From: Collinsella sp. TM09-10AT
Lineage (GTDB): Bacteria > Actinomycetota > Coriobacteriia > Coriobacteriales > Coriobacteriaceae
Assembly (NCBI RefSeq): GCF_003436275.1
Contig: NZ_QSOP01000001.1
Coordinates: forward strand, 1-64,000
DNA length: 64,000 nt
Direction: 5' to 3'
In this document: positions 2,836 through 58,873 of the stretch, in pieces
Position numbering within the stretch: the stretch's first letter is position 1
Layout: every line of letters starts with the position of its first letter
Translations under genes and position numbers: made by a program
Notes under the pieces: generated by a model
Seen by the model: only the letters and a program-made list of their open reading frames with translations
What the model was told of the DNA's origin: nothing
Databases searched by the model: none

Positions 2836-2912
2836 CCGGTGGGGTAAACCCACCGGTAGACTCCTACCTTTAGCCCCCTCCCGTTCCGTGCGCTGGAGGG
2901 GGCGCTCTTGTG
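2836..2912 (+). terminator. Two hairpins ending the arginine operon
   Basis: CCGGTGGG/CCCACCGG (2836-2856) is followed by a second hairpin, GCCCCCTCC.../GGAGGGGGC (2873-2903), then GCTCTTGT. Together they look like the end of the ADI operon. The T-run is weak, so termination may rely on the two stems acting together. Confidence 0.55.
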
Positions 2913-3082
2913 TTCCGGCGTTTTACCAAACGCCGGAACCACTCGACGCTGCAAGCCCGCCAGAGCGGCAATCTGACGTTCAATCGTCGGGCATGGCCAA
3001 AAGGCCTATGCCCTCCTCTTTCACGTCACCTTGCTCGCTCTGGTGGGCTTTCGCTGACTTATGCTCAACCTGCGGCGCTGCC
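2912..3082 (+). repeat. Structured dispersed repeat A, copy 1
   Basis: First copy of a repeat also seen at 55466-55638 and, partly, at 58685-58873. Elements in order: hairpin P1, 12 bp with a TACC loop (2912-2939); CGACGCTGCA; outer stem P2 (2953-2967 with 3036-3050, one G-T pair); stem P3 (GCAATCTGACGT 2968-2979 with ACGTCACCTTGC 3023-3034); loop strand TTCAATCGTCGG; hairpin P4 (2989-3013, AAAA loop); loop strand CCTCCTCTTTC; then a GCTGACTTATGCTCAACC tail. Apparent reading frames here look spurious. It lies between the arginine operon and the DUF1846 gene; function unknown. Confidence 0.75.
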
Positions 3083-3197
3083 ATTGTTGGCGCAGGGGGC
3101 GGCTTGCTCGCTCTGGTGTCTGTTCGCTGTTCGTTCTCTGCCCGCGACGTTTCTGCTGTTGGTGCAAAGGGGTCAGGTTACTTTGCGCCAAAAGGGG

Positions 3198-3266
3198 AAG
3201 TTGCGGTGGAATAGTTCCCGTTTGGCCGTCTTGAGGGGTTAAACAGGAGCTATTTCACCGCAACTT
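3198..3266. repeat. Palindromic dispersed repeat B, copy 1
   Basis: AAGTTGCGGTGGAATAG (3198-3214) and CTATTTCACCGCAACTT (3250-3266) form a 17-bp stem with one G-T pair, with a 35-base loop containing GTTTGGCCGT. A near copy lies at 43159-43226 and shares the arms, the loop core and the upstream GCCAAAA. Function unknown; the only other item in this 600-base gap is repeat A and a TATAAT-like hexamer at 3329-3334. Confidence 0.7.
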
Positions 3267-3375
3267 ATCGATGGCGTGTTTGGTTGGTGCCTGTTGATGG
3301 CCTGGGCATCGGGGAGGGCAGGCTCCGTTATAATCGCGTAGGAACTTAATTTACGAAACGGGACGGGAGCCATAC

Positions 3376-4857
3376 ATGCGCCAGGGTTTCGACAACGCGA
3401 AATATATCGAGCTGCAGGCCGCTCATATTAAGGAGCGCATCTCGCAGTTTGGCGGCAAGCTGTATTTGGAGTTTGGCGGCAAGCTGTTTGACGACTATCA
3501 CGCGAGCCGCGTGCTGCCGGGTTTTGAGCCGGACAGCAAGTTTCGCATGCTCAAGAGCATAGCCGACGACGTCGAGGTCATCATCGCCATTAACGCGAAC
3601 CACATCGAGAAGAACAAGGCTCGCGGTGACCTGGGCATTACCTATGACGAGGACGTTTTGCGCCTGGTCGACCTGTTCCGCGGCAACGGCTTTGCCGTCG
3701 CGGCTGTGGTCATCACCCAGTACGCCGGCCAGCCCGCTGCCGATGTGTTCCGCAACCGCCTGAACGCGCTCGGTATTCCCGCCAAGCTGCACTATCCCAT
3801 CGAGGGGTATCCGCACGATGTCGATCTGATCGTGTCCGACGATGGCTATGGCAAGAACGAGTTTGTCGAGACCACCCGACCGCTCGTTGTGGTCACTGCC
3901 CCCGGTCCTGGCTCGGGCAAGCTTGCCACCTGCCTGTCTCAGCTCTATCACGAGCACAAGCATGGCACGGCCGCCGGCTATGCCAAGTTCGAGACCTTCC
4001 CGGTCTGGAATCTTCCTCTGACGCATCCGGTCAATATTGCCTACGAGGCCGCCACGGCTGACCTCGATGACGCCAATATCATCGACTCCTTCCACCTGGA
4101 GGCCTACAACAAGACCACGGTCAACTACAACCGCGACGTCGAGGCCTTCCCGGTAGTCCGTGCCCTGATGGAAAAGATCCTGGGCAAGAGCCCCTACCAG
4201 AGCCCTACGGACATGGGCGTCAATATGGTCGGCTTTGCCATCACCGATGACGATGCCTGCCGCGACGCTTCCAAGATGGAGATCGTTCGCCGCTACTTTA
4301 CCGCGGTCGAAAATGTGCGCCGTACCGGCGTGGGCGATGAGCAAGTCGACCGTCTCAAGATTATTATGAAGAAAGCCGGCATCGATAAGAACTACTCACC
4401 GGCGCGCTCGGCGGCCCTCACCAGGGAGCAGCTGACGGGTGGTCCCGTGGGTGCCATGGTCATGCCCGATGGCTCCGTGGTGACCGGTAAGACCTCCACG
4501 CGCCTGGGCGCCGCAAGTTCGCTCATTATGAACGCCCTCAAGCATGTCTCGGGCGTCGACCTTGAGCTCGAGGTCATTAGCGATGAGGCGATCGAGCCCA
4601 TCAGCAAGCTCAAGACGCATTTCCTGGGCAGCAAAAACCCGCGCCTCCACACCGACGAGACGCTTATGGCGCTGTCGATCACCTCGGCCACGAGTGAGAC
4701 GGCCGCTCGCGTCCTTTCGGGCCTGGAGCAGCTGCGCGGTTGCGATGCCTTCTTTAGCGTGATTATCTCGCCGACGGACGAGACGGTACTGCGCAAGTTG
4801 GGCATCAACGTGTGCTGCGAGCCCAAGTTTGAGCGCCGCGGTTTCTTCCATCGCTAA
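3376..4857 (+). CDS. DUF1846 domain protein
   Basis: 493 residues, the full length expected for the DUF1846 family. The opening (QGFDNAKYIELQAAHIKERI, then FGGKLYLEFGGKLFDDYHASRVLPG) is recognisable. Members are cytoplasmic proteins of unsettled function, common in Firmicutes and Actinobacteria. The segment VVVTAPGPGSGKLATCLSQL (residues about 172-191) resembles a phosphate-binding loop, so a nucleotide-dependent role is possible but unproven. Start ATG 3376 follows GGGACGGGAGCC. It stands alone between a TATAAT-like box at 3329-3334 and a terminator, so it is probably monocistronic. Confidence 0.9.
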   Translation: MRQGFDNAKYIELQAAHIKERISQFGGKLYLEFGGKLFDDYHASRVLPGFEPDSKFRMLKSIADDVEVIIAINANHIEKNKARGDLGITYDEDVLRLVDLFRGNGFAVAAVVITQYAGQPAADVFRNRLNALGIPAKLHYPIEGYPHDVDLIVSDDGYGKNEFVETTRPLVVVTAPGPGSGKLATCLSQLYHEHKHGTAAGYAKFETFPVWNLPLTHPVNIAYEAATADLDDANIIDSFHLEAYNKTTVNYNRDVEAFPVVRALMEKILGKSPYQSPTDMGVNMVGFAITDDDACRDASKMEIVRRYFTAVENVRRTGVGDEQVDRLKIIMKKAGIDKNYSPARSAALTREQLTGGPVGAMVMPDGSVVTGKTSTRLGAASSLIMNALKHVSGVDLELEVISDEAIEPISKLKTHFLGSKNPRLHTDETLMALSITSATSETAARVLSGLEQLRGCDAFFSVIISPTDETVLRKLGINVCCEPKFERRGFFHR

Positions 4858-4890
4858 GTTTGAAGCACCGCGGTAATTGCATTGCATTTT

Positions 4891-4924
4891 GGCCGTATCG
4901 GGTTAGCGCCCGGTACGGCTTTTT
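4891..4924 (+). terminator. Terminator after DUF1846 gene
   Basis: GCCGTATCGGG (4892-4902) pairs with CCCGGTACGGC (4909-4919), followed by TTTTT. Confidence 0.85.
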
Positions 4925-5113
4925 GATCAATAAAGCGTCTATTTCGGCGAAAAATAGCTGTTTACCTGCCTAGAAACAATTTGAGCGGTATACAATAACC
5001 GTAACTGTTTCATCCTTAGCGGGATGCCGCATGATGGATATTACCTGCCATCGTGAGGTGTGTCGGTCGCGCACGGCGCGTTAGATGCTCGTGCTCGGTT
5101 TGAGGAGGCTGCT

Positions 5114-5452
5114 ATGGCGGGCAAGGGTCGTGCGAGTGTCAACGATATGAAGCGTGTCGAGGTGCTGGTGTTGATGGAGATCGACCAGCAAACCGAAGAC
5201 AATGGCGGGCCGTATGGTTTCTCGCGCAAAACGCTTGCCGAGCGCGTGGGGGTTTCGCCGTATCGTGCCCGCGCCGCAATCGATCGCTTGGATTCCGAAG
5301 GTATGATTGATGTCGTCTCGCGTTATAGCGACGACGGCGGTCAGCTTGCAAATGGCATTTGCCTCACCGAACGTGGTGAGTGGTATCTTGAGGGCGTCCG
5401 TACCGGCATGCTCGTTCAAGAAATGCTTGAGGACGAGGTTGCTGATCGATAG
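5114..5452 (+). CDS. Small winged-helix DNA-binding protein
   Basis: 112 residues. The segment GFSRKTLAERVGVSPYRARAAIDRLDSEGMIDVVSRYS (about 34-71) has the pattern of a winged helix-turn-helix, with a recognition helix around SPYRARAAIDRL and a following wing. The remainder is short and acidic, with no ligand domain. It is probably a small transcription regulator, but no named family is recognised. GAGGAGG at 5102-5108 places the start at ATG 5114; a longer reading from 5060 has no ribosome site. It lies alone between two terminators, and its targets cannot be told from context. Confidence 0.75.
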   Translation: MAGKGRASVNDMKRVEVLVLMEIDQQTEDNGGPYGFSRKTLAERVGVSPYRARAAIDRLDSEGMIDVVSRYSDDGGQLANGICLTERGEWYLEGVRTGMLVQEMLEDEVADR

Positions 5453-5475
5453 CAGCATGTAACCCTTGCCATAGC

Positions 5476-5509
5476 GACGCCGCCTGGGAAACCGGGCGGC
5501 GTTTTGTTT
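5476..5509 (+). terminator. Terminator after winged-helix gene
   Basis: GACGCCGCCTGG (5476-5487) pairs with CCGGGCGGCGTT (5492-5503, imperfect), followed by a T-rich GTTTTGTTT run. Confidence 0.8.
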
Positions 5510-5543
5510 CAAGATCGAGAAATGCAATCGCACGCGAGAAAAA

Positions 5544-5572
5544 TTGCGGACGGTCCGCGGCGCGAGTATTAC
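5544..5572 (+). promoter_or_regulatory. Putative pyrG promoter
   Basis: TTGCGG (5544-5549) and TATTAC (5567-5572) are separated by 17 bases, about 60 bases before the pyrG start. This is a moderate sigma-70-type match judged by eye only. Confidence 0.4.
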
Positions 5573-5624
5573 AATGAAGACCCGTAAGATGTGGATAAAC
5601 AACTTCTACGGGAAGCGCAGGTAA

Positions 5625-7292
<1,668 letters not shown>

Positions 7293-7294
7293 GG

Positions 7295-8236
7295 GTGCCG
7301 GCGAACAAAGAACATACCGAAGCTACTCCCTCGTCGCTCGCCGTGGCGGCGGGGGAGTATCTCGATTACCTCGCGGTCGAGCGGGGTTTGGCGCGCAACA
7401 CGATTGCGGCCTATCGTCGTGACCTGACGACGTACTGCGCGTATCTGGAGCGGGCGGGCATCATGTCTTTTGATGAGGCGACTCGTCAGGTCGTGGAGGG
7501 CTTTGTCGCCGACCGTCGCGATGGGGGCTATTCCGATGCCTCGGTGGAGCGTGCGCTTGCGGCCGTGAAGGGCCTGCATGCCTTTTTGGTGCGCGATGGG
7601 ATTGTGGCCCAAAATCCAACGGCGGCGTTGCGCCTGCCTAAAAAGGCTGAGCGTTTGCCGGAGTATCTATCGGTGGAGGATGTCTCGGCGCTGCTCGATC
7701 AAGACTTCCCCGAGGGCGAGATGGGCTTGCGCGACCATGCCATCTTGGAAGTGCTCTACGGATGCGGCTTGCGTGTGAGCGAGTTGGTGGGGCTCGATGT
7801 GGGCGATATCCATATCGACGATGGCTTTGTGCTCGTTCGCGGTAAGGGCTCAAAGGAACGCCTGTCCCCGCTGGTGGGAAGCGCGGCGCGAGCTCTGACG
7901 CTCTATTTAACTGAGGGGCGTTCTCGCTTGGCGGCCCATGCCCACGGAACCGAGACCTCGGCGGTCTTTTTAAATAAGAACGGCCGCCGTCTGTCGCGCC
8001 AGGGCATCCATGCCATCTGTGAGCGCTACGGGCGCCAGGTGGGGCTGGTGGGACTCCATCCCCATACGCTGCGTCACTCCTTTGCCACCCATATGCTTGC
8101 GGGCGGTGCAGACCTCCGTGTGCTACAGGAGATCTTGGGACATGCCGATATATCGACCACGCAGGTCTACACGCATGTCGATCGTACGCAACTGACCGAG
8201 GTCTATCTGGCGGCGCACCCGCTGGCACATCGTTAA
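7295..8236 (+). CDS. xerD: Site-specific tyrosine recombinase XerD-like
   Basis: 313 residues with an N-terminal SAM-like core-binding domain (EYLDYLAVERGLARNTIAAY) and a C-terminal catalytic domain. The tyrosine-recombinase residues are visible: Arg in GCGLRVSE (about 160), Lys in RGKGSKER, HTLRHS (His258, Arg261), LGH and the nucleophile Tyr about 292 in QVYTHV. Size and sequence fit XerD/XerC, which resolve chromosome dimers at dif. GTG 7295 is chosen because it directly follows the pyrG stop; the longer frame from 7142 would overlap pyrG with non-homologous residues. A chromosomal Xer role is far likelier than a phage integrase: no phage genes or att sites are nearby. Confidence 0.9.
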   Translation: MPANKEHTEATPSSLAVAAGEYLDYLAVERGLARNTIAAYRRDLTTYCAYLERAGIMSFDEATRQVVEGFVADRRDGGYSDASVERALAAVKGLHAFLVRDGIVAQNPTAALRLPKKAERLPEYLSVEDVSALLDQDFPEGEMGLRDHAILEVLYGCGLRVSELVGLDVGDIHIDDGFVLVRGKGSKERLSPLVGSAARALTLYLTEGRSRLAAHAHGTETSAVFLNKNGRRLSRQGIHAICERYGRQVGLVGLHPHTLRHSFATHMLAGGADLRVLQEILGHADISTTQVYTHVDRTQLTEVYLAAHPLAHR

Positions 8237-8269
8237 CACATCGCTGGCCTGCATATCTATAGGTATTTG

Positions 8270-8340
8270 GGGACGGGCCCCAGATTGCCGCGGCGTGCTT
8301 TTGCGCGCGCATGGGCAATCTGGGGTCCGTCCCATTTTTT
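8270..8340 (+). terminator. Long-stem terminator after xerD (GGGGAC type)
   Basis: GGGACGGGCCCCAGATTGCC (8270-8289) pairs with GGCAATCTGGGGTCCGTCCC (8314-8333) except one G-T pair, and a TTTTTT run follows. It shares the GGGGAC core with other hairpins in the window. Confidence 0.85.
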
Positions 8341-8431
8341 GCCACTTGTCGTCGCGGTGGCGGGCCGCATGTGCCTTGGGTGGGGGAGTTTGGGGGCGAT
8401 GTGAACGGCATGTAAAGGGACGCAAAAATCG

Positions 8432-15148: not shown

Positions 15149-16555
15149 ATGCCTCTTGCTGAAGTCTTTAGCCTGCTCGTTTTGGGTCAGGGCAAATCCG
15201 GTCTCGATGTCGCCCGCTGGGCGCTGGCACATCCCGAGCGCGTAAGCGCCGTTACCGTGTATGGCGGCGGCACCTCTGAGCCCAATGACGCCACGCGTGC
15301 GCTCGAGGCTGCTGGTGCGTCGTTTGTCTATGGGACCGAACAGGTCGAGGGCGCCTATGACGCATGCGTGACGTGCCCGGGCATCTCGGAGTTCTCGGGC
15401 TTCTTTAAGGCCGGGCGCGAACATGCCGCCCAGATTATGGGTGAGCCAGAGTTTGCCTATCGCCTGTCGCCCGATAACTGGATTGCCATCACGGGCACCA
15501 ACGGCAAGACGACCACCACGTCGCTGACCGATTATCTGCTCAAGGCTGCCGGCGAGGCCAGCGTAGCTGTCGGCAACATCGGCGAGCCGCCGGTCAACGA
15601 GATTGACGGCCGAGCCCGCAACGAGTGGTTTGTGGCTGAGCTCTCGAGCTATCAGATTGCTACGACCACCGAGCTCCACCCTCGTGTGGCGGTGCTGCTC
15701 AACATCACTCCCGACCACTTGGGCTGGCATAAGAGCCATAAGAACTATGCGCTTGCCAAGATCAAGCTGTTTGACAATATGGTCGATGACGATCTGGTGG
15801 TTGTCGACGTCGAAGACGCCGGCATTCACGAGTTCGATGAGTACATCTATACGCCGGGTCGCCGCATCTGCAAGGTCGCTTTTGACGAGCCCGAGGGTGC
15901 AGACGCCGCCTTTGTGCGCGACGGCAAAATGGTCGTGCGCCTGAAGGGCGTCGAGACTCAGCTTGTCGCCACGTCCGAACTCAAGATCTCGGGCCATCAC
16001 AATGTTATCAATGCCCTGTGCGCTGCCACGGCTGCCCTGGCAGTCGGTGCCGATGTCAATGGTGTCTGCCGCGGTCTGGCCTCGTTCCAGCCGCTCGAGC
16101 ACCGCGTGGAGCCGTGTGGCGAGATTGACGGCGTGCGCTACGTCAACGATTCCAAGGCGACCAACACCGATGCGGTCGAGAAGGCGCTGACGGCATTTCC
16201 CGATGACGACGTGATCTTGCTGCTCGGCGGCCACGATAAGGGCACGCCGCTCACGGACTTCGCGCGCGTTGTTATGGATAACGTACGCTCGGTCGTCTGC
16301 TTTGGCGATGCGCGCGAGCGCTTTACCGCCGCTATGGACGAGGCCGATGTCGATGGCGATGTGGATATCGCCCAAGCGGATGACCTGCGCGATGCCGTGG
16401 ACGTCGCCCGTTCGCTGTCGAGCCGTGGCGACGTGATCTTACTTTCTCCTGCCTGCTCTTCGTTCGATGAGTTCTCGGGCTATGAGGAGCGCGGCCGCGT
16501 GTTTAAGGACTATGTGGCGCAGCTTGCCGCTGCGGCGAAATCGCAAATGGAATAG
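15149..16555 (+). CDS. murD: UDP-MurNAc-L-alanine--D-glutamate ligase
   Basis: 468 residues. N-terminal Rossmann-like domain (LLVLGQGKSGLDVARWAL), ATP-binding GTNGKTTTTSL near 115, ELSSYQ near 165, NITPDHLGWH, and the third-domain VNDSKATNTDAVEKAL. It adds D-Glu to UDP-MurNAc-Ala. It lies between mraY and ftsW with minimal spacing, as in most dcw operons. Confidence 0.96.
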   Translation: MPLAEVFSLLVLGQGKSGLDVARWALAHPERVSAVTVYGGGTSEPNDATRALEAAGASFVYGTEQVEGAYDACVTCPGISEFSGFFKAGREHAAQIMGEPEFAYRLSPDNWIAITGTNGKTTTTSLTDYLLKAAGEASVAVGNIGEPPVNEIDGRARNEWFVAELSSYQIATTTELHPRVAVLLNITPDHLGWHKSHKNYALAKIKLFDNMVDDDLVVVDVEDAGIHEFDEYIYTPGRRICKVAFDEPEGADAAFVRDGKMVVRLKGVETQLVATSELKISGHHNVINALCAATAALAVGADVNGVCRGLASFQPLEHRVEPCGEIDGVRYVNDSKATNTDAVEKALTAFPDDDVILLLGGHDKGTPLTDFARVVMDNVRSVVCFGDARERFTAAMDEADVDGDVDIAQADDLRDAVDVARSLSSRGDVILLSPACSSFDEFSGYEERGRVFKDYVAQLAAAAKSQME

Positions 16556-16564
16556 GGGTTGCCG

Positions 16565-18085
16565 GTGAGAGAGGAGAGCCCCCGACAAGGTATGAGGAGG
16601 CCCGACTCGGACCGTGCTTCCTCGCGGCGTAGCACACCGCGTTCCGGTCGCGGCGGGCAGTCGTTTAGCGAACGCTATATTGCCGGCGTTCCCGCCCGCA
16701 TCATGCGCCCCCGTCTGATATTTATGGCCTGCCTGTTTACTTTGGTGTGCTTTGGTCTGCTGATGGTGTACTCGGCGTCTTCGGTCGAGGCGCTGCACGA
16801 GAATGGCTCGGCGACGTTTTTCCTGGGTCGACAGGCCGCGTTTGCCGTGGTTGGTGTTCTGGCGCTGATTGCCATCGTGCGCGTTTTGCCGGACAGCTGG
16901 TTTGGGGAGGATGTGCTTAGGATCTTCCTTATCGGCATGATAGGGCTACTGTTTCTGGTGTTCTTGGTGGGCAGCGGCAGCCGTGGCGCCACGCGCTGGC
17001 TCAACATCGCCGGTATTCAGTTCCAGCCTTCCGAGTTTTTAAAGCCATTTGCCATTGCGTATTCGGCCATCATGCTTGATCGCTTCTTTTCGCCCGGTGG
17101 CAACATAAACGAATTCCTTCGCAAGATGGGCATCTACCTGGGTATTTCGCTCTTTCTGATCTTTATCCAGCCCGATTTCGGTACTGTCCTGATCATCCTG
17201 TTGACCCTCATGTGCATGGCGTTGTTTGCGGGTCTCGACCCGAGATTTATCATCGGCGTGCTAATCTTCGGCATTCTCGTGATCGTGATTGCACTTGTCG
17301 CAGAGCCGTACCGTATGGTGCGTATTCAGGTTGCCTTGAACCCTTGGGCTGACGAGTATGGTGACGGCTATCAGGCCACGCTTGCCATCATGGCCTTTGC
17401 CTCGGGCGGTCTGTTCGGCCGTGGCATCGGCAACTCAACCATGAAGTACTCGTATCTGCCCGAGGCGCACAATGACTACATCCTGGCCATCATTGGCGAG
17501 GAAGTCGGCTTTGTCGGAACCGTGCTGTTCTTCTTGGTGTTTGCGATGCTGATCTACTCGGCGTTTCGCATTGCCGAGCAGGCGACCGATCGTCGGGGCG
17601 CGCTTATGGCGTCTGGCTCCGCGGTCATTCTCGCGGTGCAGTTTTTGATTAACGCGCTGGGCATCCTCAACGTGTTTCCCATGACGGGCAAACCGTTGCC
17701 GTTTATTAGCTACGGCGGTTCGTCGATTATTGTGTCGCTTATGCTTGCCGGGTTGATCCTGCGCGTTTCGTACGAGAGCGCCCGCCGCGATGAGTATGAC
17801 CGCCGCCGTGAGAGCTTTGCCGTTATGGACGAGAGCACCGCCGGCGTGGCCCATGTGCGCGGTGAACGACCTTCGCGTAGCGGCTTTACCGTTCTGGATG
17901 GTTCTGCATCCGAGCCGGCAGCTCGTCCACGCTCGCGAACGGCTCCGCAAGGTCGTCCGCAGCGCCCCAGCCCTCGCAACGCGGGCGGCGGATATAATCG
18001 AATCGATTTGAACTCGGACCCGTCGGCGCGTCTGCGCACCGACGACCAGGGACCGCGTGTACGAAGGGACTACCATGACCGATAA
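16565..18085 (+). CDS. ftsW: Septal peptidoglycan polymerase FtsW (SEDS)
   Basis: About 506 residues with a basic cytoplasmic N-tail, ten or so membrane segments (residues 50-410) and a long disordered, Arg/Pro-rich C-tail. SEDS motifs include LNIAGIQFQPSEFLK, the long YLPEAHNDYILAIIGEE periplasmic loop and GKPLPFISYGGSS. It polymerises glycan strands with FtsI. GTG 16565 is preferred because AGGGG lies six bases upstream; TTG 16559 touches the ribosome site. The last 11 bases overlap murG. Rod-shape RodA is the only serious alternative, but the position argues for FtsW. Confidence 0.93.
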   Translation: MREESPRQGMRRPDSDRASSRRSTPRSGRGGQSFSERYIAGVPARIMRPRLIFMACLFTLVCFGLLMVYSASSVEALHENGSATFFLGRQAAFAVVGVLALIAIVRVLPDSWFGEDVLRIFLIGMIGLLFLVFLVGSGSRGATRWLNIAGIQFQPSEFLKPFAIAYSAIMLDRFFSPGGNINEFLRKMGIYLGISLFLIFIQPDFGTVLIILLTLMCMALFAGLDPRFIIGVLIFGILVIVIALVAEPYRMVRIQVALNPWADEYGDGYQATLAIMAFASGGLFGRGIGNSTMKYSYLPEAHNDYILAIIGEEVGFVGTVLFFLVFAMLIYSAFRIAEQATDRRGALMASGSAVILAVQFLINALGILNVFPMTGKPLPFISYGGSSIIVSLMLAGLILRVSYESARRDEYDRRRESFAVMDESTAGVAHVRGERPSRSGFTVLDGSASEPAARPRSRTAPQGRPQRPSPRNAGGGYNRIDLNSDPSARLRTDDQGPRVRRDYHDR

Positions 18086-33201: not shown

Positions 33202-33280
33202 GCGGGCCCGGCCACTAATAACCTTTTGAACGACTCTGCTTGCAGCCGGAGTGAAAAAGGTTATTAGTGGCCGGGCCCGC
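33202..33280. repeat. Perfect 26-bp inverted repeat
   Basis: The arm at 33202-33227 (GCGGGCCCGGCC...CCTTTT) is exactly complementary to 33255-33280 (AAAAGG...GGCCGGGCCCGC), with a 27-base loop. It lies between the nitroreductase start and the DUF47 stop, both on the minus strand. It could be a terminator for the DUF47-pit transcript, but the arms are far longer than needed and there is no T-run on the minus side. A similar GC-rich long palindrome is at 47753-47881. Confidence 0.75.
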
Positions 33281-40264: not shown

Positions 40265-41599
40265 TTAGTCCTCCATGCCGAGGTCGATCGTCGTGCCTTC
40301 GAACACCTTGTTAACGGTGCGGACGGCGCACATCTTGCCACACATGGTGCAGGTGCCCTCGGTGGCGGCGGGGGACTCCTCGTAGCGCTTCTTACCGGTG
40401 ACCGGGTCGAGAGCACACTCCCACATGGCATCCCAGTCGAGCTTGCGGCGTGCCTGGCCCATCTTGTCGTCCATGTCGCGGGCGTGCGGCACCTTTTTGG
40501 CGATATCGGCGGCGTGCGCGGCAATCTTAGTGGCCATGAGGCCATCGAGCACGTCCTGGGCGTTGGGCAGGCACAGGTGCTCGGCCGGCGTCACGTAGCA
40601 CAGGAAGTCGGCACCGGAGCTGGCGGAGATGGCGCCGCCGATGGCAGCGGTGATGTGGTCGTAACCCACGCCGATATCGGTCACCAGCGGCCCGAGCACA
40701 TAGAACGGGGCATTGTGGCACAGGCGCTTCTGCAGTTTCATGTTGGCGGCGATCTCGTCGAGCGCCATGTGACCCGGGCCCTCGACCATGACCTGGACGC
40801 CGGCGGCCCAAGCGCGCTTGCACAGCTTGCCCAGCTCGATCATCTCAGCGGTCTCGGTGGCATCGTTGGAGTCGTAGAGGCAGCCCGGGCGGCAGGAGTC
40901 GCCGAGCGAAATCGTCACGTCGTACTCGTGGCAAATCTCGAGCAGCTCGTCAAAGTGCTCGTAGAAGGGGTTTTCGTTGCCGGTGACCTCCATCCAGCCA
41001 AACAGCAGCGAGCCGCCGCGACTGACGATGTTCATCAGGCGGCCGGTCTCCTTAAAGGTCTTGGTGACCGACTTGTTGATGCCGCAGTGGATGGTCATAA
41101 AGTCCACGCCATCCTCGGCGTGCGCGCGCACGACCTCGAACAGGTCATCCTTGGTAAGCTTGACCAGCGGCTTTTCCATGTAGCCGATGGCGTCGTACAT
41201 GGGCACCGTGCCCACCATGAGCGGCGTCTCGTCGATGAGCTGCTGGCGGAACTGGCGCGTTTTGCCCGAGTTGGAAAGGTCCATGATGGCGTCGGCGCCA
41301 AAGTCCTCGGCGATCTTGACCTTCTTCCATTCCTCGGCGGCATCGGCCTTGTCGCCCGAGATGCCCAGGTTGACGTTGACCTTGGTGGACAGGCCCTCGC
41401 CGACACCAAAGGCGCGCATGCCCTTTTTGATATGCACGATGTTGGCGGGAATGGCGATGCGGCCGTCGGCCACGCGCTCGCGGATGTACTCGGGGTCGCG
41501 ATGCTCGCGCTCGGCGACTTCCTTCATCTGCGGCGTGATCTGCCCGGCGCGGGCGAAGTCGATTTGCGTGACGAGCTTGGGCTCGGTCTGTGTGCTCAT
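40265..41599 (-). CDS. thiC: Phosphomethylpyrimidine synthase ThiC
   Basis: 444 residues, the shorter ThiC form. Shared features: AGITKSV-like segment GINKSVTKTF, SLGDSCRPGC, VMVEGPGHMALDEI, and the C-terminal iron-sulfur motif CTMCGKMC (C-x2-C-x3-C). It makes HMP-phosphate from aminoimidazole ribotide by radical-SAM chemistry. A TPP riboswitch precedes it, and thiD follows, confirming thiamine rather than the related 5-hydroxybenzimidazole route. GGGAGCCGTGCC places the start at 41599; a longer frame to 41623 is less likely. Confidence 0.94.
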   Translation of the reverse strand: MSTQTEPKLVTQIDFARAGQITPQMKEVAEREHRDPEYIRERVADGRIAIPANIVHIKKGMRAFGVGEGLSTKVNVNLGISGDKADAAEEWKKVKIAEDFGADAIMDLSNSGKTRQFRQQLIDETPLMVGTVPMYDAIGYMEKPLVKLTKDDLFEVVRAHAEDGVDFMTIHCGINKSVTKTFKETGRLMNIVSRGGSLLFGWMEVTGNENPFYEHFDELLEICHEYDVTISLGDSCRPGCLYDSNDATETAEMIELGKLCKRAWAAGVQVMVEGPGHMALDEIAANMKLQKRLCHNAPFYVLGPLVTDIGVGYDHITAAIGGAISASSGADFLCYVTPAEHLCLPNAQDVLDGLMATKIAAHAADIAKKVPHARDMDDKMGQARRKLDWDAMWECALDPVTGKKRYEESPAATEGTCTMCGKMCAVRTVNKVFEGTTIDLGMED

Positions 41600-41608
41600 T
41601 GGCACGGC

Positions 41609-41698
41609 TCCCTTCGTTGGCATTACCCATATCAGGTTTGCGGGTCAGGGCGGGCGCGCCCAGTCTCAGCCTGCCGTCTTGTCCTGCAAGCTCCCCGT
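41609..41698 (-). promoter_or_regulatory. TPP (THI-box) riboswitch
   Basis: Read on the minus strand the leader has GGGGAGC, GGCTGAGA, CCGCAAACCTGAT and GGGTAATGCCAACGAAGGGA, the defining order of the thiamine-pyrophosphate aptamer. Its 3' end runs into the GGGAG ribosome site of thiC, so ligand binding probably blocks translation by hiding the ribosome site. No separate terminator follows within the short gap, supporting translational control. Confidence 0.95.
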
Positions 41699-41770
41699 TT
41701 ATGTAATGGGCTCAAGTATAGCTCGAATGGGTACGATTGGCCTAACGAGCGTGCCTGTGGGGAGGCGAAC

Positions 41771-53235: not shown

Positions 53236-53273
53236 ACCAGCTTTGACTCCTTAAAGCTGTTAGCGTGTGGTTT

Positions 53274-53308
53274 GGGCGCCGCGGAACTCCATCCGCGGCG
53301 CCCTTTTT
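53274..53308 (+). terminator. Terminator after ndk
   Basis: GGGCGCCGCGG (53274-53284) and CCGCGGCGCCC (53293-53303) form a perfect 11-bp stem followed by TTTTT. Confidence 0.92.
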
Positions 53309-53313
53309 ATTCC

Positions 53314-53383
53314 AGTAGATTTTGGTAAACGCCCACAAATCTACTAAAGAGCCCCCGTCCGGATGTTTCTTCCGGGCGGGGGC
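53314..53383 (-). terminator. Hairpins at the rpiB 3' end
   Basis: GCCCCCGTCCGGA/TCCGGGCGGGGGC (53351-53383) then AGTAGATTT/AAATCTACT (53314-53345). On the minus strand they follow the rpiB stop; T-rich sequence lies after the GC stem. Confidence 0.7.
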
Positions 53384-53411
53384 TGGCGTTAGCGTATGGC
53401 TTTGTGAATCT

Positions 53412-53879
53412 TTAGGCTTCGTCGACGATCTTAAGGCCGCGCGTCTGGTCGATCTCGTTGAGGAGATTGACGCGACGCTCGTGACGACCGCCCTCAAACT
53501 CGGCGTCGAGCCACTCGTCGACAATCATCTTGGCGAGCTCGGAGCCCACGACGCGGGCGCCAAAGGCGAGCACGTTGGTATTGTTGTGCATGCGCGAGAG
53601 CTTGGCGCTGAAGGGCTCGGAGCACACGACGGCGCGAACGCCCTCCACCTTGTTGGCAGCCAGGCTGATGCCGACGCCGGTGCCGCAGATCAGGATGCCC
53701 AGGTCGACGTCGCCGTTGGCAACGGCCTTACCCACCTTGTAGCCGGCGATGGGGTAATCAAAGCTCTCGGAGGTGTCGGTTCCAAAGTTCACGACCTCAC
53801 AGCCGCGCTCCTTCAGGTGCTCGGAAATGATGTTCTTGAGCTCGACGGCGGCGTGGTCGTTACCGATACCAATCTTCAT
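53412..53879 (-). CDS. rpiB: Ribose-5-phosphate isomerase B
   Basis: 155 residues, RpiB/LacAB fold. IGNDHAAVELKNIISEHL, the catalytic-Cys strand GILICGTGVGISLAANK, and HNNTNVLAFGARVVG are characteristic. It interconverts ribose-5- and ribulose-5-phosphate. A GAGAGGAACCACTC site precedes the start. Alternative allose-6-phosphate isomerase activity is known for RpiB but there is no allose context. Confidence 0.94.
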   Translation of the reverse strand: MKIGIGNDHAAVELKNIISEHLKERGCEVVNFGTDTSESFDYPIAGYKVGKAVANGDVDLGILICGTGVGISLAANKVEGVRAVVCSEPFSAKLSRMHNNTNVLAFGARVVGSELAKMIVDEWLDAEFEGGRHERRVNLLNEIDQTRGLKIVDEA

Positions 53880-54150
53880 GAGTGGTTCCTCTCTGGTCCG
53901 TGCGGCGGAATTGCTAAAGGTTTTACCGCGTTCGACTGCATGATAGCGCGACTTTTGTGTAAACGCTCGGGCGTTTTTTGGTCAAACGCTTTAGCATGCA
54001 ACAAGACCGGCTTTTCATGAATGAATGCCGTCGGATTGCGCTTGAACGCCGTCCGTCGGAACCATGGTTGCGGTTTTTGATGCATTGTTATCAAATAAAA
54101 GAGCTAACTATTATCGAGAGTCCAGTCCGTTATGTAAGCAGGAGATACCT

Positions 54151-55470
54151 ATGCCTACCGATTCCATTCGCGATGCCGCTTTTTGCGATGTCTTGAACCG
54201 CGAGCTTGTCTGTGCGCTCGGCTGCACCGAGCCTATTGCCGTTGCCTATGCAGCGGCGCTGGCGAGCCAGACACTCGGTTGCGAACCCGATCATATGGAC
54301 GTTGCCTGCTCGGGCAACATCATCAAGAACGTTAAGAGCGTGACCGTGCCCAACTCGGGCGGCATGCACGGTATTGAAGCAGCGGCCGTACTGGGTGCCG
54401 TGGGCGGTGACGCCAAGAGCGCGCTCGAGGTGCTCGAGTGCGTTAACGACGAAGATCGTGCTCGCGTGGCCGAGCTCCTCGCCGATGCTGATTACTGCGA
54501 TGTGTCGCTTGTCGAGGGTGTACCCAACCTCTACATCAAGGTGACTGCCACAGCCGGGGGCCATACCGCGGTCGTCGAGATTACCGACCACCACACCAAT
54601 GTCACGTGCCATACGCTCGACGGTATTCCGGTGTGCGGCAAGTCGGCGGGGGAGTGCGCCGCCTGCGCCGAGCGCGTCGTGGCCGAGCGCGCGGCAGATA
54701 ACGCCGACACGCCCATGTCGATCGAGTCCATCATCGACTTTATCGAGGGCGGCGACATCGAGAGCGCCCGCGCGGCCGTTGAGCGCCAGATTGAGCTGAA
54801 CGGTGCGATCAGTGCCGAGGGCCTCGCGCACGCTTGGGGCGCCGAGGTAGGCCGTACGTTGCTGGGTGCTCGTGCCGATGACGTCGCCTGCCGTGCCCGT
54901 GCCCGTGCGGCCGCCGGGTCCGACGCCCGCATGAACGGTTGCGCGCTGCCGGTCGCCATTGTGTGCGGCTCGGGCAATCAGGGCATTACCTGCGCATTGC
55001 CCGTCATGGAGTATGCCGAGTACCTGCGCTGCGACCACGATCGCCTGGTGCGCGCCGTAATTCTGTCCGATCTTATCGCCGTGCATATCAAAAGTTATAT
55101 TGGTGCGCTCTCGGCGTTTTGCGGTGCTATTTGCGCCGCATGCGGTGCCGGTGCCGCGATTACCTGGCTGTGTGGTGGCACGCGCGAGCAGATTGGCGCG
55201 ACGGTCTCGAACACGCTCGGCAACGTTGGCGGCATCGTGTGCGATGGCGCCAAGGCAAGCTGCGCCGCCAAGATTTCCGCTGCCGTTGATGCGGCGATTC
55301 TGGGTCACGATATGGCCATGCAGGGTCGCGGCTTCCGCGCCGGCGAGGGCCTCATCCAGGATACCGTCGAGCAGACAATCGCCAGCATGGGCTACGTGGG
55401 CCGTGTGGGCATGAAGGACACCGACGTCGAGATCCTCAACATTATGATCGGCAAAACACGGGTTTGCTAG
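54151..55470 (+). CDS. L-cysteine desulfidase family (UPF0597)
   Basis: 439 residues. ELVCALGCTEPIAVAYAAALA, GNIIKNVKSVTVPNSGGMHGIEAAAVLG, GSGNQGITCALPVMEYAEYL and GNVGGIVCDGAKASCAAKISAAVDAAI are family hallmarks; conserved cysteines bind the iron-sulfur cluster. It splits cysteine to pyruvate, ammonia and sulfide, like CyuA/CdsB. AGCAGGAGATACCT places the start at ATG 54151; the frame from 54064 lacks a ribosome site. The last codon (TAG 55468-55470) lies in the hairpin of structured repeat A. Confidence 0.92.
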   Translation: MPTDSIRDAAFCDVLNRELVCALGCTEPIAVAYAAALASQTLGCEPDHMDVACSGNIIKNVKSVTVPNSGGMHGIEAAAVLGAVGGDAKSALEVLECVNDEDRARVAELLADADYCDVSLVEGVPNLYIKVTATAGGHTAVVEITDHHTNVTCHTLDGIPVCGKSAGECAACAERVVAERAADNADTPMSIESIIDFIEGGDIESARAAVERQIELNGAISAEGLAHAWGAEVGRTLLGARADDVACRARARAAAGSDARMNGCALPVAIVCGSGNQGITCALPVMEYAEYLRCDHDRLVRAVILSDLIAVHIKSYIGALSAFCGAICAACGAGAAITWLCGGTREQIGATVSNTLGNVGGIVCDGAKASCAAKISAAVDAAILGHDMAMQGRGFRAGEGLIQDTVEQTIASMGYVGRVGMKDTDVEILNIMIGKTRVC

Positions 55471-55638
55471 CTACGCGGTTTTACCAAACCGCGTAGCTAG
55501 CCGACGCTGCAAACGCCCCTAAGCGGCAATCTGACGTTCAATCGTCGGTCGCGTACCAAAGTACGCTTCCCTCCTCTTTCACGTCACCTTGCTCGCTTAG
55601 GGGCGTTTTCGCTGACTGATGCTCAACCTACGGCGCTT
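55466..55638 (+). repeat. Structured dispersed repeat A, copy 2
   Basis: Hairpin P1 is 16 bp perfect (55466-55481 with 55486-55501, TACC loop); CCGACGCTGCA; P2 AAACGCCCCTAAGCG (55511-55525) with 55594-55608; P3 GCAATCTGACGT (55526-55537) with 55581-55592; P4 GCGTAC/GTACGC (55551-55566). TTCAATCGTCGG and CCTCCTCTTTC match copy 1 exactly while the P1, P2 and P4 helix sequences differ but still pair. The tail CTCAACCTACGGCGC ends in TTTTTT, so it may also act as a terminator. Confidence 0.78.
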
Positions 55639-55677
55639 TTTTGTTTGGGGCACTCATTGGGGACAGACTTGAATGAG

Positions 55678-55732
55678 TAGTCGTTGGGGACGTTCTTGTT
55701 TGACTAGTTGTTTAGAACGTCCCCAACGACTA
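55678..55732. terminator. Perfect 19-bp hairpin (GGGGAC type)
   Basis: TAGTCGTTGGGGACGTTCT (55678-55696) and AGAACGTCCCCAACGACTA (55714-55732) are exact complements around a 17-base loop. It lies between the convergent cysteine desulfidase and HAD genes. A half-site TTGGGGACAG lies just upstream (about 55658). Without a T-run, so termination is uncertain. Confidence 0.65.
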
Positions 55733-55736
55733 ACCC

Positions 55737-56495
55737 TTACGACAGTTCGTCGGCTACTTGGTGCTCGTAGAAGGCTTCTACTACGGCGTTGAAGTCGCGG
55801 GCGAAGTCTTCCATGGTGCCGTGCCAGGTGGCTCGGCCGGGTTTTCCCTGGCCAACATAGGCGGTTTGGATGCCGCAGGCGGGGCTGGGGAAGTCGCGCT
55901 TGGGGTCGTTGCCCACCATGAGGACCTCATGAGGCTCGAGTCCCATCACCTGAAGCTGCTCTAGATAGTAGGTGGCATCGGGCTTGCAGCGGGTGGCGTT
56001 TCCCATGTGCGTCACGAGTTCAAAGGGGGCGTCGGCCATGTCGCCCCAGCCCATGCGGCACTCGATGGCCCCCTGCGGAAAGCTGGGGTTCGTAAAGAGC
56101 GCGCAGCGCAGGCCCGCGTTCTGTACCACCTCGAGCGCGGCGTGTGCACCCGGCATGGCTTTCGCATTGATCATGTCATCGTTCTTGTACGGCAGGACTT
56201 CACGATCGTAGTAGGTAAACGCCTCGTAGATGAGTGGGTCTGAGAGGCAAATGCCGCACCGGCGCTCAATTTCTTCTTGGTAGAACTCAAGATTGGTGCG
56301 ATTGTCAGTGCCGCTTCGGCGATTGGCGTTGAGGTCGACCAGAATCGTGCCGAGGCGCGCCATCGTGCCGCCGCGGCTGCGTCGTCCGATATCTGCAAGC
56401 ATCGACGAGACATCCTTAAAATAGCGAAGGATGAACGCGTTGAGGTTGATGCTAAGAAGCGTCTCGTCCATATCGAAAACGACTGCTTTGAGCAC
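55737..56495 (-). CDS. HAD-superfamily hydrolase
   Basis: 252 residues. Motif I VVFDMDETLLSINL at the start, motif II LFTNPS, and the GNDPKRDFPSPACGIQTAYVGQG end with motif IV Asp. Family members are phosphatases or phosphatase-like; substrate unknown. The start is GTG 56495 behind GAAAGGTGCCCGC. Confidence 0.88.
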   Translation of the reverse strand: MLKAVVFDMDETLLSINLNAFILRYFKDVSSMLADIGRRSRGGTMARLGTILVDLNANRRSGTDNRTNLEFYQEEIERRCGICLSDPLIYEAFTYYDREVLPYKNDDMINAKAMPGAHAALEVVQNAGLRCALFTNPSFPQGAIECRMGWGDMADAPFELVTHMGNATRCKPDATYYLEQLQVMGLEPHEVLMVGNDPKRDFPSPACGIQTAYVGQGKPGRATWHGTMEDFARDFNAVVEAFYEHQVADELS

Positions 56496-56810
56496 GCGGG
56501 CACCTTTCTCGATAAATCGTTTCAGAATCGTATGTCTGGGATACTTTACTCCAAAGCCGTATGCCCAACTGCTTATCGTCAGCTTGTGGAGACAGTCGTT
56601 CACAAGATTGCGAAAAAGTCTCCATACGAGTAAAAAATGGCAGTTCACGCTTGAAATCGAAGTGATTTCCCCGTAACCTATACGAACGTGATTGCATAAG
56701 CGTCACATTAGTATCTGTCGGCTCCCGAGTGTTCCTAAACGTTGTGTGCTTGTCGCACCCTTCTGTAGGTCCTAGCAATCGGGGCCCCGTAGTTCGAAAG
56801 GGGTCCACCT
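56496..56810 (+). promoter_or_regulatory. rpsA leader region
   Basis: 315 bases with no gene. Near the start codon GGCCCC (56783-56788) can pair with GGGGTC (56800-56805), hiding the ribosome site GAAAGGGG. Possible -35 TTGAAA near 56651 has a TATACG box 22 bases on, too far for a clean promoter. Translational control of S1 by such a hairpin is possible. Confidence 0.5.
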
Positions 56811-57977
56811 TTGAGTGAGATTCAGAACTCGTCCATTTTCTCTCTTGACGATGTCAACGAGGAGGAGATGAACAACCTCATCGACGGTACGATTACCGAC
56901 TTTGATGAGGGCGATCTCGTTAACGGCACTGTCGTTAAGATCGAGCATGACGAGGTGCTCGTTGACATCGGATTCAAGTCCGAGGGCGTTATCCCGGTCC
57001 GCGAGCTGTCCATCCGCAAGGACGCTAACCCTGCAGACATCGTTGCACTCGGTGATCCCATCGAGGCCCTCGTTCTCCAGAAGGAGGACAAGGACGGTCG
57101 TCTGGTCCTGTCCAAGAAGCGTGCCGAGTACGAGCGTGCTTGGAACCGCATCGAGGAGAAGTTCAACTCCGGCGAGAACGTCGAGGGCGAGGTTATCGAG
57201 GTTGTCAAGGGCGGCCTGATTCTCGACATCGGCCTGCGTGGCTTCCTGCCCGCTTCCCTCGTCGACCTCCGTCGCGTCAAGGACCTCACCTCCTACATGG
57301 GTACCCGCATCGAGGCCCGCGTCATCGAGATGGACCGCAACCGCAACAACGTCGTCCTCTCCCGTCGCGTCGTGCTTGAGGAGTCCCGTAAGGCCGAGCG
57401 CTCCGAGATCCTGTCCAAGCTCAAGTCTGGCATGCGTCTCCAGGGCACCGTTTCCTCCATCGTCGACTTCGGCGCCTTCGTCGACCTCGGCGGTATCGAC
57501 GGCCTCATCCACATCTCCGAGCTCTCTTGGAACCACGTCAACCATCCTTCCGAGGTTGTCAAGGTCGGCCAGGAGGTCGAGGTCGAGGTTCTCGACGTCG
57601 ATCTCAACCGCGAGCGCATCTCCCTGGGTCTCAAGCAGACCACCGAGGATCCGTGGCGCGCACTGGTCAAGAAGTATCCCGTCGGCGCTATCGTCGAGGG
57701 CACTGTGACCAAGCTTGTCCCGTTCGGCGCTTTCGTCGACCTGGGCGAGGGCATCGAGGGCCTGGTGCACATCTCCGAGATGGCCAACAAGCACGTCGAT
57801 CAGCCTTCTCAGGTCACCCATGTGGGCGACAAGGTTCAGGTCAAGGTCATGGAGATCGACCTCGACCGTCGTCGTATCTCCCTGTCCATGAAGTCTGCTG
57901 CTGAGACTCTGGGCGTCGAGATTGAGGTTACCCCGCTGCCTTCCGAGAAGAAGGACGAGGAGACCGACGCCGAGTAA
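56811..57977 (+). CDS. rpsA: 30S ribosomal protein S1
   Basis: 388 residues, four S1/OB RNA-binding repeats (EGDLVNGTVVKIEHDEVLVDIGFKSEG, GENVEGEVIEVVKGGLILDIGLRG, SGMRLQGTVSSIVDFGAFVDLGG, VGAIVEGTVTKLVPFGAFVDLG). The start is TTG behind GAAAGGGGTCCACC. S1 recruits mRNA to the small subunit. Actinobacterial S1 of this size has four repeats rather than the six of E. coli. Confidence 0.95.
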   Translation: MSEIQNSSIFSLDDVNEEEMNNLIDGTITDFDEGDLVNGTVVKIEHDEVLVDIGFKSEGVIPVRELSIRKDANPADIVALGDPIEALVLQKEDKDGRLVLSKKRAEYERAWNRIEEKFNSGENVEGEVIEVVKGGLILDIGLRGFLPASLVDLRRVKDLTSYMGTRIEARVIEMDRNRNNVVLSRRVVLEESRKAERSEILSKLKSGMRLQGTVSSIVDFGAFVDLGGIDGLIHISELSWNHVNHPSEVVKVGQEVEVEVLDVDLNRERISLGLKQTTEDPWRALVKKYPVGAIVEGTVTKLVPFGAFVDLGEGIEGLVHISEMANKHVDQPSQVTHVGDKVQVKVMEIDLDRRRISLSMKSAAETLGVEIEVTPLPSEKKDEETDAE

Positions 57978-57999
57978 ATCGGTTGACGATCACTTGTTT

Positions 58000-58034
58000 A
58001 AGGGATCCGTCCGTAATGGACGGGTCCCTTTTTA
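58000..58034 (+). terminator. Terminator after rpsA
   Basis: AAGGGATCCGTCC (58000-58012) pairs with GGACGGGTCCCTT (58018-58030), with one mismatch, followed by TTTTT. Confidence 0.9.
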
Positions 58035-58090
58035 CATTTGGCGGTGAAATGCACGATGCTACCCGGGCGCAATTTTGTCCGGGCTATCCG

Positions 58091-58152
58091 TTTGCTATTG
58101 GCTTGTCGGTGCATAAAATATGCCGACATCCCGCCTCGGGGAGGAGGCGGGA
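58091..58152 (+). promoter_or_regulatory. Putative promoter and hairpin upstream of rnpB
   Basis: TTTGCT (58091-58096) and TAAAAT (58114-58119) with 17 bases between, followed by a CCCGCCTC/GAGGAGGCGGG hairpin (58130-58151). The next 160 bases to rnpB hold no gene. This could be an upstream rnpB promoter or the start of a small RNA. Confidence 0.45.
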
Positions 58153-58280
58153 ACGCACTGAGTAGACGGAGGGGTGCGGAGCGCGGTCGCGTCTCGACTG
58201 ACGACGTTGCCCATCGACAAGCCTATTGTACTGCATGGCGTGGTTCTTGGTTTATCGTGTCGAACGCTTGTGTTGTGCCA

Positions 58281-58307
58281 TTGCCAATAGCGACGGTGTG
58301 CTACACT
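58281..58307 (+). promoter_or_regulatory. Putative rnpB promoter
   Basis: TTGCCA (58281-58286) and TACACT (58302-58307) with 15 bases between, ten bases before the RNA 5' end. The -10 is good, the spacing short. Confidence 0.5.
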
Positions 58308-58316
58308 CTTACACTG

Positions 58317-58676
58317 CTGAGTGGGCCAGACGGTCGCGCGATGTGCTGCTTGCAGCACGCGTGAGGAAAGTCCGGGCTCCAGAGGGCGGGATGCCGGCTA
58401 ACGGCCGGGCGGAGTGATCCGACGGAAAGCGCCGCAGAAAAGAAGACTCCCACCTGCGCCGCAAGGCGTAAAGGGAAAAGCTGAAACGGTGGTGTAAGAG
58501 ACCACCAGCGTCGTGGCAACACGGCGGCTTGGCAAGCCCCATCCGGAGCAAGCGCGAATAGGAACGCTATGGGCCGGCCCGGTCCGCGTTCGGGTAGCGT
58601 GCGTGGAGCTGCACGGTAACGTGCAGACAAGATAAATGACCGTTCACGACAGAACCCGGCTTACAAGCCCACTCAG
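58317..58676 (+). ncRNA. rnpB: RNase P RNA (type A)
   Basis: The terminal P1 helix is CTGAGTGGGC (58317-58326) with GCCCACTCAG (58667-58676). Conserved GAGGAAAGTCCGGGCTCC near the 5' end and ACAGAACCCGGCTTAC near the 3' end identify the catalytic core; the inner GGAGTGATCCGACGGAAAG and the long cruciform fit the ancestral (type A) form. Length is about 360 bases. It trims 5' ends of tRNA precursors. Confidence 0.96.
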
Positions 58677-58684
58677 CACTTTGT

Positions 58685-58786
58685 TGACGCTGCGACGTCG
58701 TCAGCTGGCCGATTTGGCGCTCATTCGTCGGTCGCCGCCATAAGGCGTGCTCCCTCCTCTTTCGGGCCAAATCGACTCAGCTGACG
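58685..58786 (+). repeat. Structured dispersed repeat A, copy 3 (partial)
   Basis: TTGACGCTGC matches the other copies; the outer stem is GTCAGCTG (58700-58707) with CAGCTGAC (58778-58785), then CGATTTGGC (58710-58718) with GCCAAATCG (58766-58774). The loop strands CATTCGTCGG and CCCTCCTCTTTC are nearly as in copies 1 and 2, around a different hairpin (GCC-ATAA-GGC). The P1 TACC hairpin is absent. It lies just after rnpB. Confidence 0.7.
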
Positions 58787-58787
58787 C

Positions 58788-58873
58788 CGTCTCGCTGTTT
58801 TTGTCTGATCATCGGCGGTTCCGTTCTTAGCGTCTCGCTGTAATTGCCTGGTCATCGGCGCTTCCATTCTTTT
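58788..58873 (+). repeat. Tandem 43-base repeat
   Basis: Two units, 58788-58830 and 58831-58873, share CGTCTCGCTGT, TTG, TCATCGGCG and TTCC-TTCT with a few changes. The unit resembles the tail of repeat A (TGxTCAxxxxCGGCGCTT), so it may be a duplicated tail. It ends in TTTTT. Confidence 0.6.

Follow-up and report, generated by a model that had tools for sequence, protein, structure and literature searches.

What kind of element is a long, structured repeat that stands behind genes in a gut bacterium, and is it kept for what it does as RNA or carried along as DNA? The question is raised by a 64,000-nt stretch of Collinsella sp. TM09-10AT (contig NZ_QSOP01000001.1, positions 1 to 64,000; hereafter the window), in which three copies of such a repeat were found and followed up by computational analysis. 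The copies are tentatively read here, at a probability of roughly 0.4, as members of a REP (repetitive extragenic palindromic)-like family of palindromic repeats that probably serves as a hairpin at the 3' ends of transcripts or between cistrons. The family is class-wide, dispersed in Collinsella and other Coriobacteriia, and REP-like in place and number. It is REP-like in the broad sense of being multi-copy, extragenic and mainly downstream of genes, and also in carrying a conserved mismatch within a covarying stem (the outer TC/TC, in 88/93 copies).

Results

The three copies in the window

Copies 1 and 2 lay where the first-pass annotation had placed them and showed the order of parts that it had described. 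Copy 1 comprises P1 (2912-2939), a main hairpin (2944-3056) and a tail ending at about 3082, and copy 2 comprises P1 (55466-55501), a main hairpin (55502-55614) and a tail ending at 55638. Copy 3 had been called partial, which is correct in that P1 and the CTCAACC tail are absent; its main hairpin is complete (58685-58796), with TGACGCTGC, P2, P3, both loop strands, P4 and CGCTG, and lies directly downstream of the RNase P RNA gene (58318-58679). Copy 1 is atypical, as its P1 begins 140 nt beyond an open reading frame (ORF) end at 2771. The parts are listed below.

2912..2939, + strand: P1 of copy 1, 12-bp arms, loop TACC (inverted repeat, arms 100% complementary)
2944..2952, + strand: 5' boundary motif CGACGCTGC of copy 1
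2953..2967, + strand: P2 5' arm of copy 1, partner 3036-3050 (inverted repeat, consensus)
2974..2979, + strand: P3 5' arm of copy 1, partner 3023-3028 (read from sequence, covariation)
2980..2990, + strand: 5' loop strand TCAATCGTCGG of copy 1, facing 3012-3022, with tandem TC/TC mismatches
2991..3011, + strand: P4 upper stem and loop of copy 1
3012..3022, + strand: 3' loop strand CCTCCTCTTTC of copy 1
3023..3028, + strand: P3 3' arm of copy 1
3036..3050, + strand: P2 3' arm of copy 1 (inverted repeat)
3052..3056, + strand: 3' boundary motif CGCTG of copy 1
3057..3082, + strand: tail of copy 1, including CTCAACC
55466..55501, + strand: P1 of copy 2, arms of 16 bp, TACC loop; overlap with the stop codon that ends the ORF 54064-55470
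55502..55614, + strand: main hairpin of copy 2, from CGACGCTGC (55502-55510) to CGCTG (55610-55614); model match 55524-55594
55511-55525/55594-55608, + strand: P2 arms of copy 2
55538..55548, + strand: 5' loop strand TCAATCGTCGG of copy 2
55570..55580, + strand: 3' loop strand CCTCCTCTTTC of copy 2
55615..55638, + strand: tail of copy 2, including CTCAACC
58318..58679, + strand: RNase P RNA (class A), upstream of copy 3 (Rfam RF00010, 278.9 bits)
58685..58796, + strand: main hairpin of copy 3, from TGACGCTGC (58685-58693) to CGCTG (58792-58796); model match 58707-58777
58721..58731, + strand: 5' loop strand TCATTCGTCGG of copy 3
58753..58763, + strand: 3' loop strand CCTCCTCTTTC of copy 3

The core pattern TCGTCGG-N10-36-CCTCCTCTTTC occurred 3 times in the window, always on the + strand, and was absent from 100 dinucleotide-shuffled windows (mean 0.00, 0/100 with any). 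The strand CCTCCTCTTTC alone, with one mismatch allowed, was not significant, as 8/100 shuffles attained 3 occurrences. A core covariance model (R1) scored the three copies at 92.1, 81.5 and 74 bits, the next best matches in the window reaching 17.2 and 10.4 bits. The 17.2-bit match (16553-16624, - strand, E 0.0095) is possibly a decayed copy or a chance hit.

Architecture of the element

Type A copies run from P1 through CGACGCTGC, P2, module X, P3, module Y and P4, and then back to CGCTG; the main hairpin measures about 113 nt from CGACGCTGC to CGCTG, and P1 usually precedes it. Type B copies are without P1, stand nearer the stop codon and have the strands of module X mostly swapped, module X (ATCT/ACCT) being found in either orientation. 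P1 was detected in 77 of the 94 copies examined, and its loop was most commonly TACC (45/77) and fitted T[AG][AC]C in 66/77. Module Y consists of TCAATCGTCGG facing CCTCCTCTTTC and reads, as pairs, GG/CC, TC/TC, G-C, TC/TC, AA/TT, TC/TC. The Watson-Crick pairs between its mismatches co-change in distant copies (A-T to C-G, G-C to C-G), indicating that the loop strands do face each other.

Spread across genomes

The model R1, derived from a core alignment of 53 sequences, matched 39 of 43 Collinsella genomes (E ≤ 0.01) and left 4 without a match, which places the copies in one family. Among the 39 matching genomes, 23 hold 29-48 copies each and the remainder 1-23; when 13 low-copy genomes were searched with laxer filters, two stayed without a match at E ≤ 0.1, and the single matches in two genomes (G016 and G054) were weak and chance-like in look. 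The exact core pattern was present in 14/29 relatives, all 14 among the 18 genomes of Collinsella, and a reversed control pattern gave 0 matches. With at most 16 candidates scored per genome, 75/296 genomes of a class sample matched (E ≤ 1e-4). They belong to the genus, to four more genera of its family and to two other families of the order (1-7 copies), together with one genome of another family whose match is shortened and doubtful. In a phylum sample 8/296 genomes matched, all in the family of Collinsella. The search across Collinsella and other Coriobacteriia that the first-pass annotation had proposed thus recovered many copies.

The exact core was absent from the viral contigs searched, and copy 2 had no blastn match in phage records. 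The plasmid collection gave one match, NZ_OY725717.1 (Collinsella aerofaciens TSDC17.2-1.1 'plasmid 6', 899,693 bp), with 11 copy-2-like places and nothing annotated beneath the match. This record is filed as a plasmid yet has pst and tgt genes, and a piece of chromosome is possible.

Covariation and turnover at the DNA level

In the core alignment, 91.8% of cells were paired (74.2% in shuffles), 202 cells were changed on both sides (69 in shuffles), and the covariation score was 0.467 compared with ≤0.143 for slid structures; further pair types stayed at shuffle level (32 vs 31.1). At least two Watson-Crick types were seen at all 15 pairs of P2 and at 9/12 pairs of P1 in full-length type A copies. 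The earlier claim that the stems differ between copies and still pair is therefore borne out by the larger alignment, with covariation beyond base-pair chance and far above both the shuffled and the slid controls. Covariation by itself does not establish an RNA, as compensatory changes, and inverted loops too, can arise when the template is switched at inverted repeats, as described in passages of PMC8794818; PMC8604942 likewise names this as a source of such changes.

Several loci carry marks that point to template switching or conversion at the DNA level, namely inversion in place, perfect palindromes and module exchange. Between cysS and rlmB of one genome, the whole 101-nt hairpin is inverted within collinear flanks, and once turned back it is identical to a relative at 96/101 positions. 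Locus L169 is a perfect palindrome, and the P1 loop is flipped at loci L005 and L031. At the prfA site, two P1 alleles (GTTACGCGG and GTTACGGCG) and two inner hairpins are found in all four combinations, which shows modular exchange. The stem pairing may thus be partly a DNA-level product. The region from cysS to rlmB also holds a tandem type B pair in two genomes and an apparently fused copy in a third (L016, L033, L081), the latter having the look of a tandem pair that has lost its middle by recombination.

As the pairing may partly be a DNA product, what argues for selection is the mismatches that remain unrepaired. These were scored in 93 full-length type A copies collected by the outer boundary and P2 only, without use of the mismatch loop. 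Beyond the 88 copies with an intact outer TC/TC mismatch, full repair was seen in 1; the middle and inner mismatches of module Y were more variable than the outer one. Module X had pyrimidine mismatches at both places in 55/93 and was fully repaired in 3.

Strong covariation, conserved internal-loop strands and the occurrence of module X in either orientation would also suit a family of small RNAs that act in trans or as antisense, or a classical ligand- or protein-bound cis-RNA. Such an RNA is improbable for an element that often has 29-48 copies in a genome, where they stand behind genes unrelated to each other, and of which perfect-palindrome and inverted copies persist.

Position, neighbouring genes and direction

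In one Collinsella genome (G015), a sense gene ends ≤70 nt from the 5' edge of the model match in 35 of 45 copies, at a distance of 52-61 nt in 25 of them and of 2-37 nt in 10. Since P1 starts 54 nt (copy 1) or 58 nt (copy 2) before the model edge, P1 in the 52-61 nt group starts at the stop codon or within a few bases of it. The stop codon was TAG in 23/35 genes beside copies and in 47/113 other genes (p 0.02).

The direction of the copies is also biased. Of the 45 copies of G015, 26 lie in sense and 4 in antisense orientation between codirectional genes (p 6e-5; two of the 26 form a tandem pair), 13 between convergent genes and 0 between divergent ones, the right neighbour being unresolved for 2. 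In a wider, non-random set of 109 copies, scored with a codon-scored gene caller, the numbers were 62 sense, 7 antisense, 30 convergent, 6 divergent and 4 other. The pyrimidine mismatch strands are on the sense strand in the direction-biased copies. The first-pass statement that copies lie on the same strand after genes holds for the window, where all three are on the + strand.

To name neighbouring genes, 60 proteins were compared with NCBIfam, a set in which the gene at L029 is counted twice, four neighbours of antisense copies are included and 13 have no family at the limits used. The upstream genes comprise those of eight synthetases (pheS, cysS, ileS, valS, trpS, aspS, tyrS, lysS), release factor 1, queA, tsaD, ettA, RNase D, rpoC, gyrB and ftsY, and also fabG, htpG, proB, dapD, pyrE and uppP. 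Five synthetases were found in about 38 sites of G015 (tyrS and lysS directly; pheS, cysS and ileS via orthologues; p 3e-5), in a test that assumes 22 synthetases in 2100 genes. This enrichment was spotted in hindsight and serves as no more than a lead. An extended reading, which we regard as unlikely, sees the copies as addressable 3'-end modules. A putative single-strand-specific system would exchange hairpin cassettes, and invert them in place, where the reading frames of translation genes stop (those for tRNA synthetases, release factor 1, tRNA modification and RNase P). The genes would thereby share one protein-read signal in their 3' untranslated regions (UTRs), and a mobile hairpin would have spread a 3'-UTR regulon.

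One and the same gene end may hold a type A copy in one genome and a type B copy in another (fabG, gyrB and a lacC/pfkB-type kinase), and several genomes are without the element at the fabG, gyrB, kinase and prfA-type sites compared. Copies at the same gene end also persist across species and families, for example behind pheS. Four intra-operon sites were named by family on both sides (pheS/pheT, cysS/rlmB, fabG/fabF and gyrB/gyrA), and such sites fit a role at the level of the cistron.

The site right after stop codons, and the 30/109 copies between convergent genes, would be expected if the copies formed a class of transcription terminators or attenuators in these bacteria. This is nevertheless very improbable, given the copies within the four operons named above, a five-T run ≤36 nt behind the hairpin in just 5/93 type A copies, and copy 1 itself, which follows another terminator-like inverted repeat (2873-2903). 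The intrinsic terminator was rejected on the T5 run, counted in type A copies only, and on the sites inside operons.

A function, perhaps one exerted in the transcript, is suggested by position and direction behind genes together with the fixed mismatches. To this extent the structured RNA with a bound partner that the first-pass annotation offered holds in part, and its appeal to covariation as such does not.

Strand, replication and the search for a mover

A number of results weigh against a role of the hairpin in the transcript, or against the proposed way in which copies arise. In the core set (97 distinct rows of 112 matches), non-Watson-Crick cells were G-T in 59 and A-C in 27. This sense bias was gone in full-length type A copies (130 G-T, 128 A-C), and the wobble bias was dropped as strand evidence. 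Calculated RNA energies were lower for the sense strand in 3/93 copies, with a mean difference of 10 kcal/mol; the antisense strand is more stable because its mismatches are G.A, in tandem at the module Y mismatch positions. Wobble counts and energies thus name no sense strand, and the direction of the copies leans to sense.

The direction bias is real, and gene direction and replication direction nearly coincide. At 28/30 codirectional sites of G015 the genes follow the majority strand of the replichore; at the two others, the copy runs with the gene in one case and with the replichore in the other. Fourteen copies chosen as opposing the replichore majority comprised 5 sense and 3 antisense copies between codirectional genes, 5 uninformative ones between convergent genes and 1 palindrome. 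In a second genome (G030) the strand follows the replichore in 13/15 and 18/22 copies, by a hand count in zones picked after the data had been seen. Copy-free stretches at 0.38-0.91 Mb in G030 and 0.48-0.93 Mb in G015 are perhaps the terminus region. Inverted copies persist (L027, L174, L179, L180). Insertion boundaries could not be fixed from element-free sites (e.g. L220, L232, L236), where the flanks are too diverged and no clean footprint was seen.

The search for a mover among Y1 transposases and RAYTs (REP-associated tyrosine transposases) identified none for the element. Y1_Tnp (PF01797) matches were found in 5/5 and 16/22 genomes searched; among 22 Collinsella genomes searched, the domain was present in 12/12 with ≥23 copies and in 4/10 with ≤5 copies. 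Three copy-bearing genomes are without it, namely G037 (5 copies) and G006 and G051 (1 strong copy each). At 12 fetched Y1/RAYT loci, 0 copies of the element were found within about 3 kb (E ≤ 1), and a neighbouring RAYT/Y1 transposase was rejected as the mover. The palindromic mobile element suggested in the first-pass annotation holds in part: the in-place inversion, the perfect palindromes and the module exchange point to turnover as DNA, and no mover was found.

Some RAYT/Y1 genes of relatives (L168, L259, L260) are flanked by GGGAC-type palindromes, another family. The window itself holds at 55654-55736 a second palindromic repeat, TAGTCGTTGGGGACGTTCT ... AGAACGTCCCCAACGACTA, with 19-nt perfect arms, which also occurs near other copies of the element (e.g. 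L035, L040, L041) and, by its likeness to the GGGAC-type palindromes, may be a RAYT-linked REP.

These observations bear on a reading that can well be entertained, if short of probable, in which the element is a selfish DNA hairpin repeat. An enzyme acting on single-stranded DNA (a RAYT in trans or another HUH-type protein) would read the antisense strand in its folded form, in which purine faces purine at the mismatches (tandem G.A) and the P1 loops are of the G-N-N-A type, and would copy it beside stop codons; direction would then reflect insertion relative to replication or transcription, with no RNA role. The greater stability of the antisense strand is as expected, the strand follows the replichore (inseparable here from gene direction), and the commoner TAG stops beside copies are reminiscent of the GTAG tag. 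A close analogy is provided by E. coli TnpAREP, which needs the conserved mismatches of its REPs and loses its activity when a regular stem is restored, according to passages of PMC8266576. A RAYT acting in trans is retained within this reading, since the presence of PF01797 tracks copy number. The 12 Y1/RAYT loci without a copy and the three copy-bearing genomes without PF01797 speak against it, and the copies kept at the same gene ends across species and families suggest use by the host. As gene direction and replication direction are not separated, and as the Y1 domain correlates with copy number, the hairpin acting at transcript ends was weighted down and the DNA-only explanation up.

Other features of the window

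Downstream of copy 1, at 3198-3266, lies a long inverted repeat with 26-nt arms (88%) around GTTGCGGTGGAATAGTTCC, possibly a third repeat family; similar text occurs in L007. A TPP (thiamine pyrophosphate) riboswitch match at 41592-41707 on the - strand scored 51.8 bits, just below the gathering score of 54.3, and overlaps a gene called on the same strand, at the 5' end of that gene. A perfect 22-bp inverted repeat with a 31-nt spacer at 33204-33278 gave a sub-threshold match to an unrelated microRNA model.

Discussion

The preferred reading, a hairpin at transcript ends or between cistrons, joins turnover as DNA with use as RNA. Copies would spread at the DNA level, where template switching and conversion would keep the arms paired and exchange them between copies. 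After transcription, the sense strand would fold at the upstream cistron's 3' end, and the predicted hairpin would probably shield the upstream message from 3' exonucleases and set cistron ratios in operons. The pyrimidine mismatches could form the recognition site for a putative protein.

In a genus common in the gut, a genome often carries about 40 of these structured hairpins, anchored at stop codons, and nothing in Rfam matches them. The element separates two signals that are otherwise confounded, compensatory change by DNA template switching and selection seen in unrepaired mismatches. It offers a tractable case for the role of hairpins behind stop codons in the mRNA of Actinomycetota, and a caution for covariation-based RNA discovery where palindromic repeats are concerned.

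Comparison with known systems

The first-pass annotation had considered Collinsella-1, which passages of PMC2864571 list as RF01700, a structured candidate from gut Actinobacteria. The element resembles it in being such a candidate; the identity is not supported, as a search of the whole window against Rfam (E ≤ 1) returned no family that matches the copies. The passages of PMC8040213 describe 3161 candidate RNAs of human microbiomes (the HMP2 set), of which 250 are palindromic and some are not predicted terminators. These palindromic structures of gut bacteria are similar in kind, and they may include the element without a name for it. No description of the repeat was found in the literature searched by titles, abstract starts and passages, the supplementary lists of PMC8040213 not being part of the comparison.

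The integron attC site likewise folds as a hairpin from a single strand, leaves the stem sequence free and directly follows a stop codon; its core boxes are GTTRRRY and RYYYAAC. It was rejected because both core boxes together occurred in 0/93 type A copies. The element also differs in standing at housekeeping genes of the chromosome.

The nearest likeness is to REPs and BIMEs (bacterial interspersed mosaic elements), which passages of PMC3733652 describe as many-copy, imperfect palindromes mostly behind coding regions. As in E. coli REPs, conserved mismatches lie inside the stem (passages of PMC8266576), and as in the CGTC super-family no adjacent or dedicated transposase was found (passages of PMC3733652). 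The element differs from REPs in size, with a main hairpin of about 113 nt plus P1 compared with 20-40 bp, in a start tied to the stop codon, in a strong direction bias and in several tandem mismatches. GTAG, which stands unpaired as the tag of classical REPs, was present in the first 20 nt in 19/93 type A copies, and [GT]TA[GA] in 48/93, at a place where the stop codon falls. The classical GTAG REP was rejected on hairpin length and on the flanking of RAYT genes, from which the element differs by having no copy in the 12 Y1/RAYT loci. Tests of defining features thus place the element outside the classical GTAG REPs, the attC sites, the intrinsic terminators and the Rfam families, and it looks like a new variation on the palindromic repeats of other bacteria.

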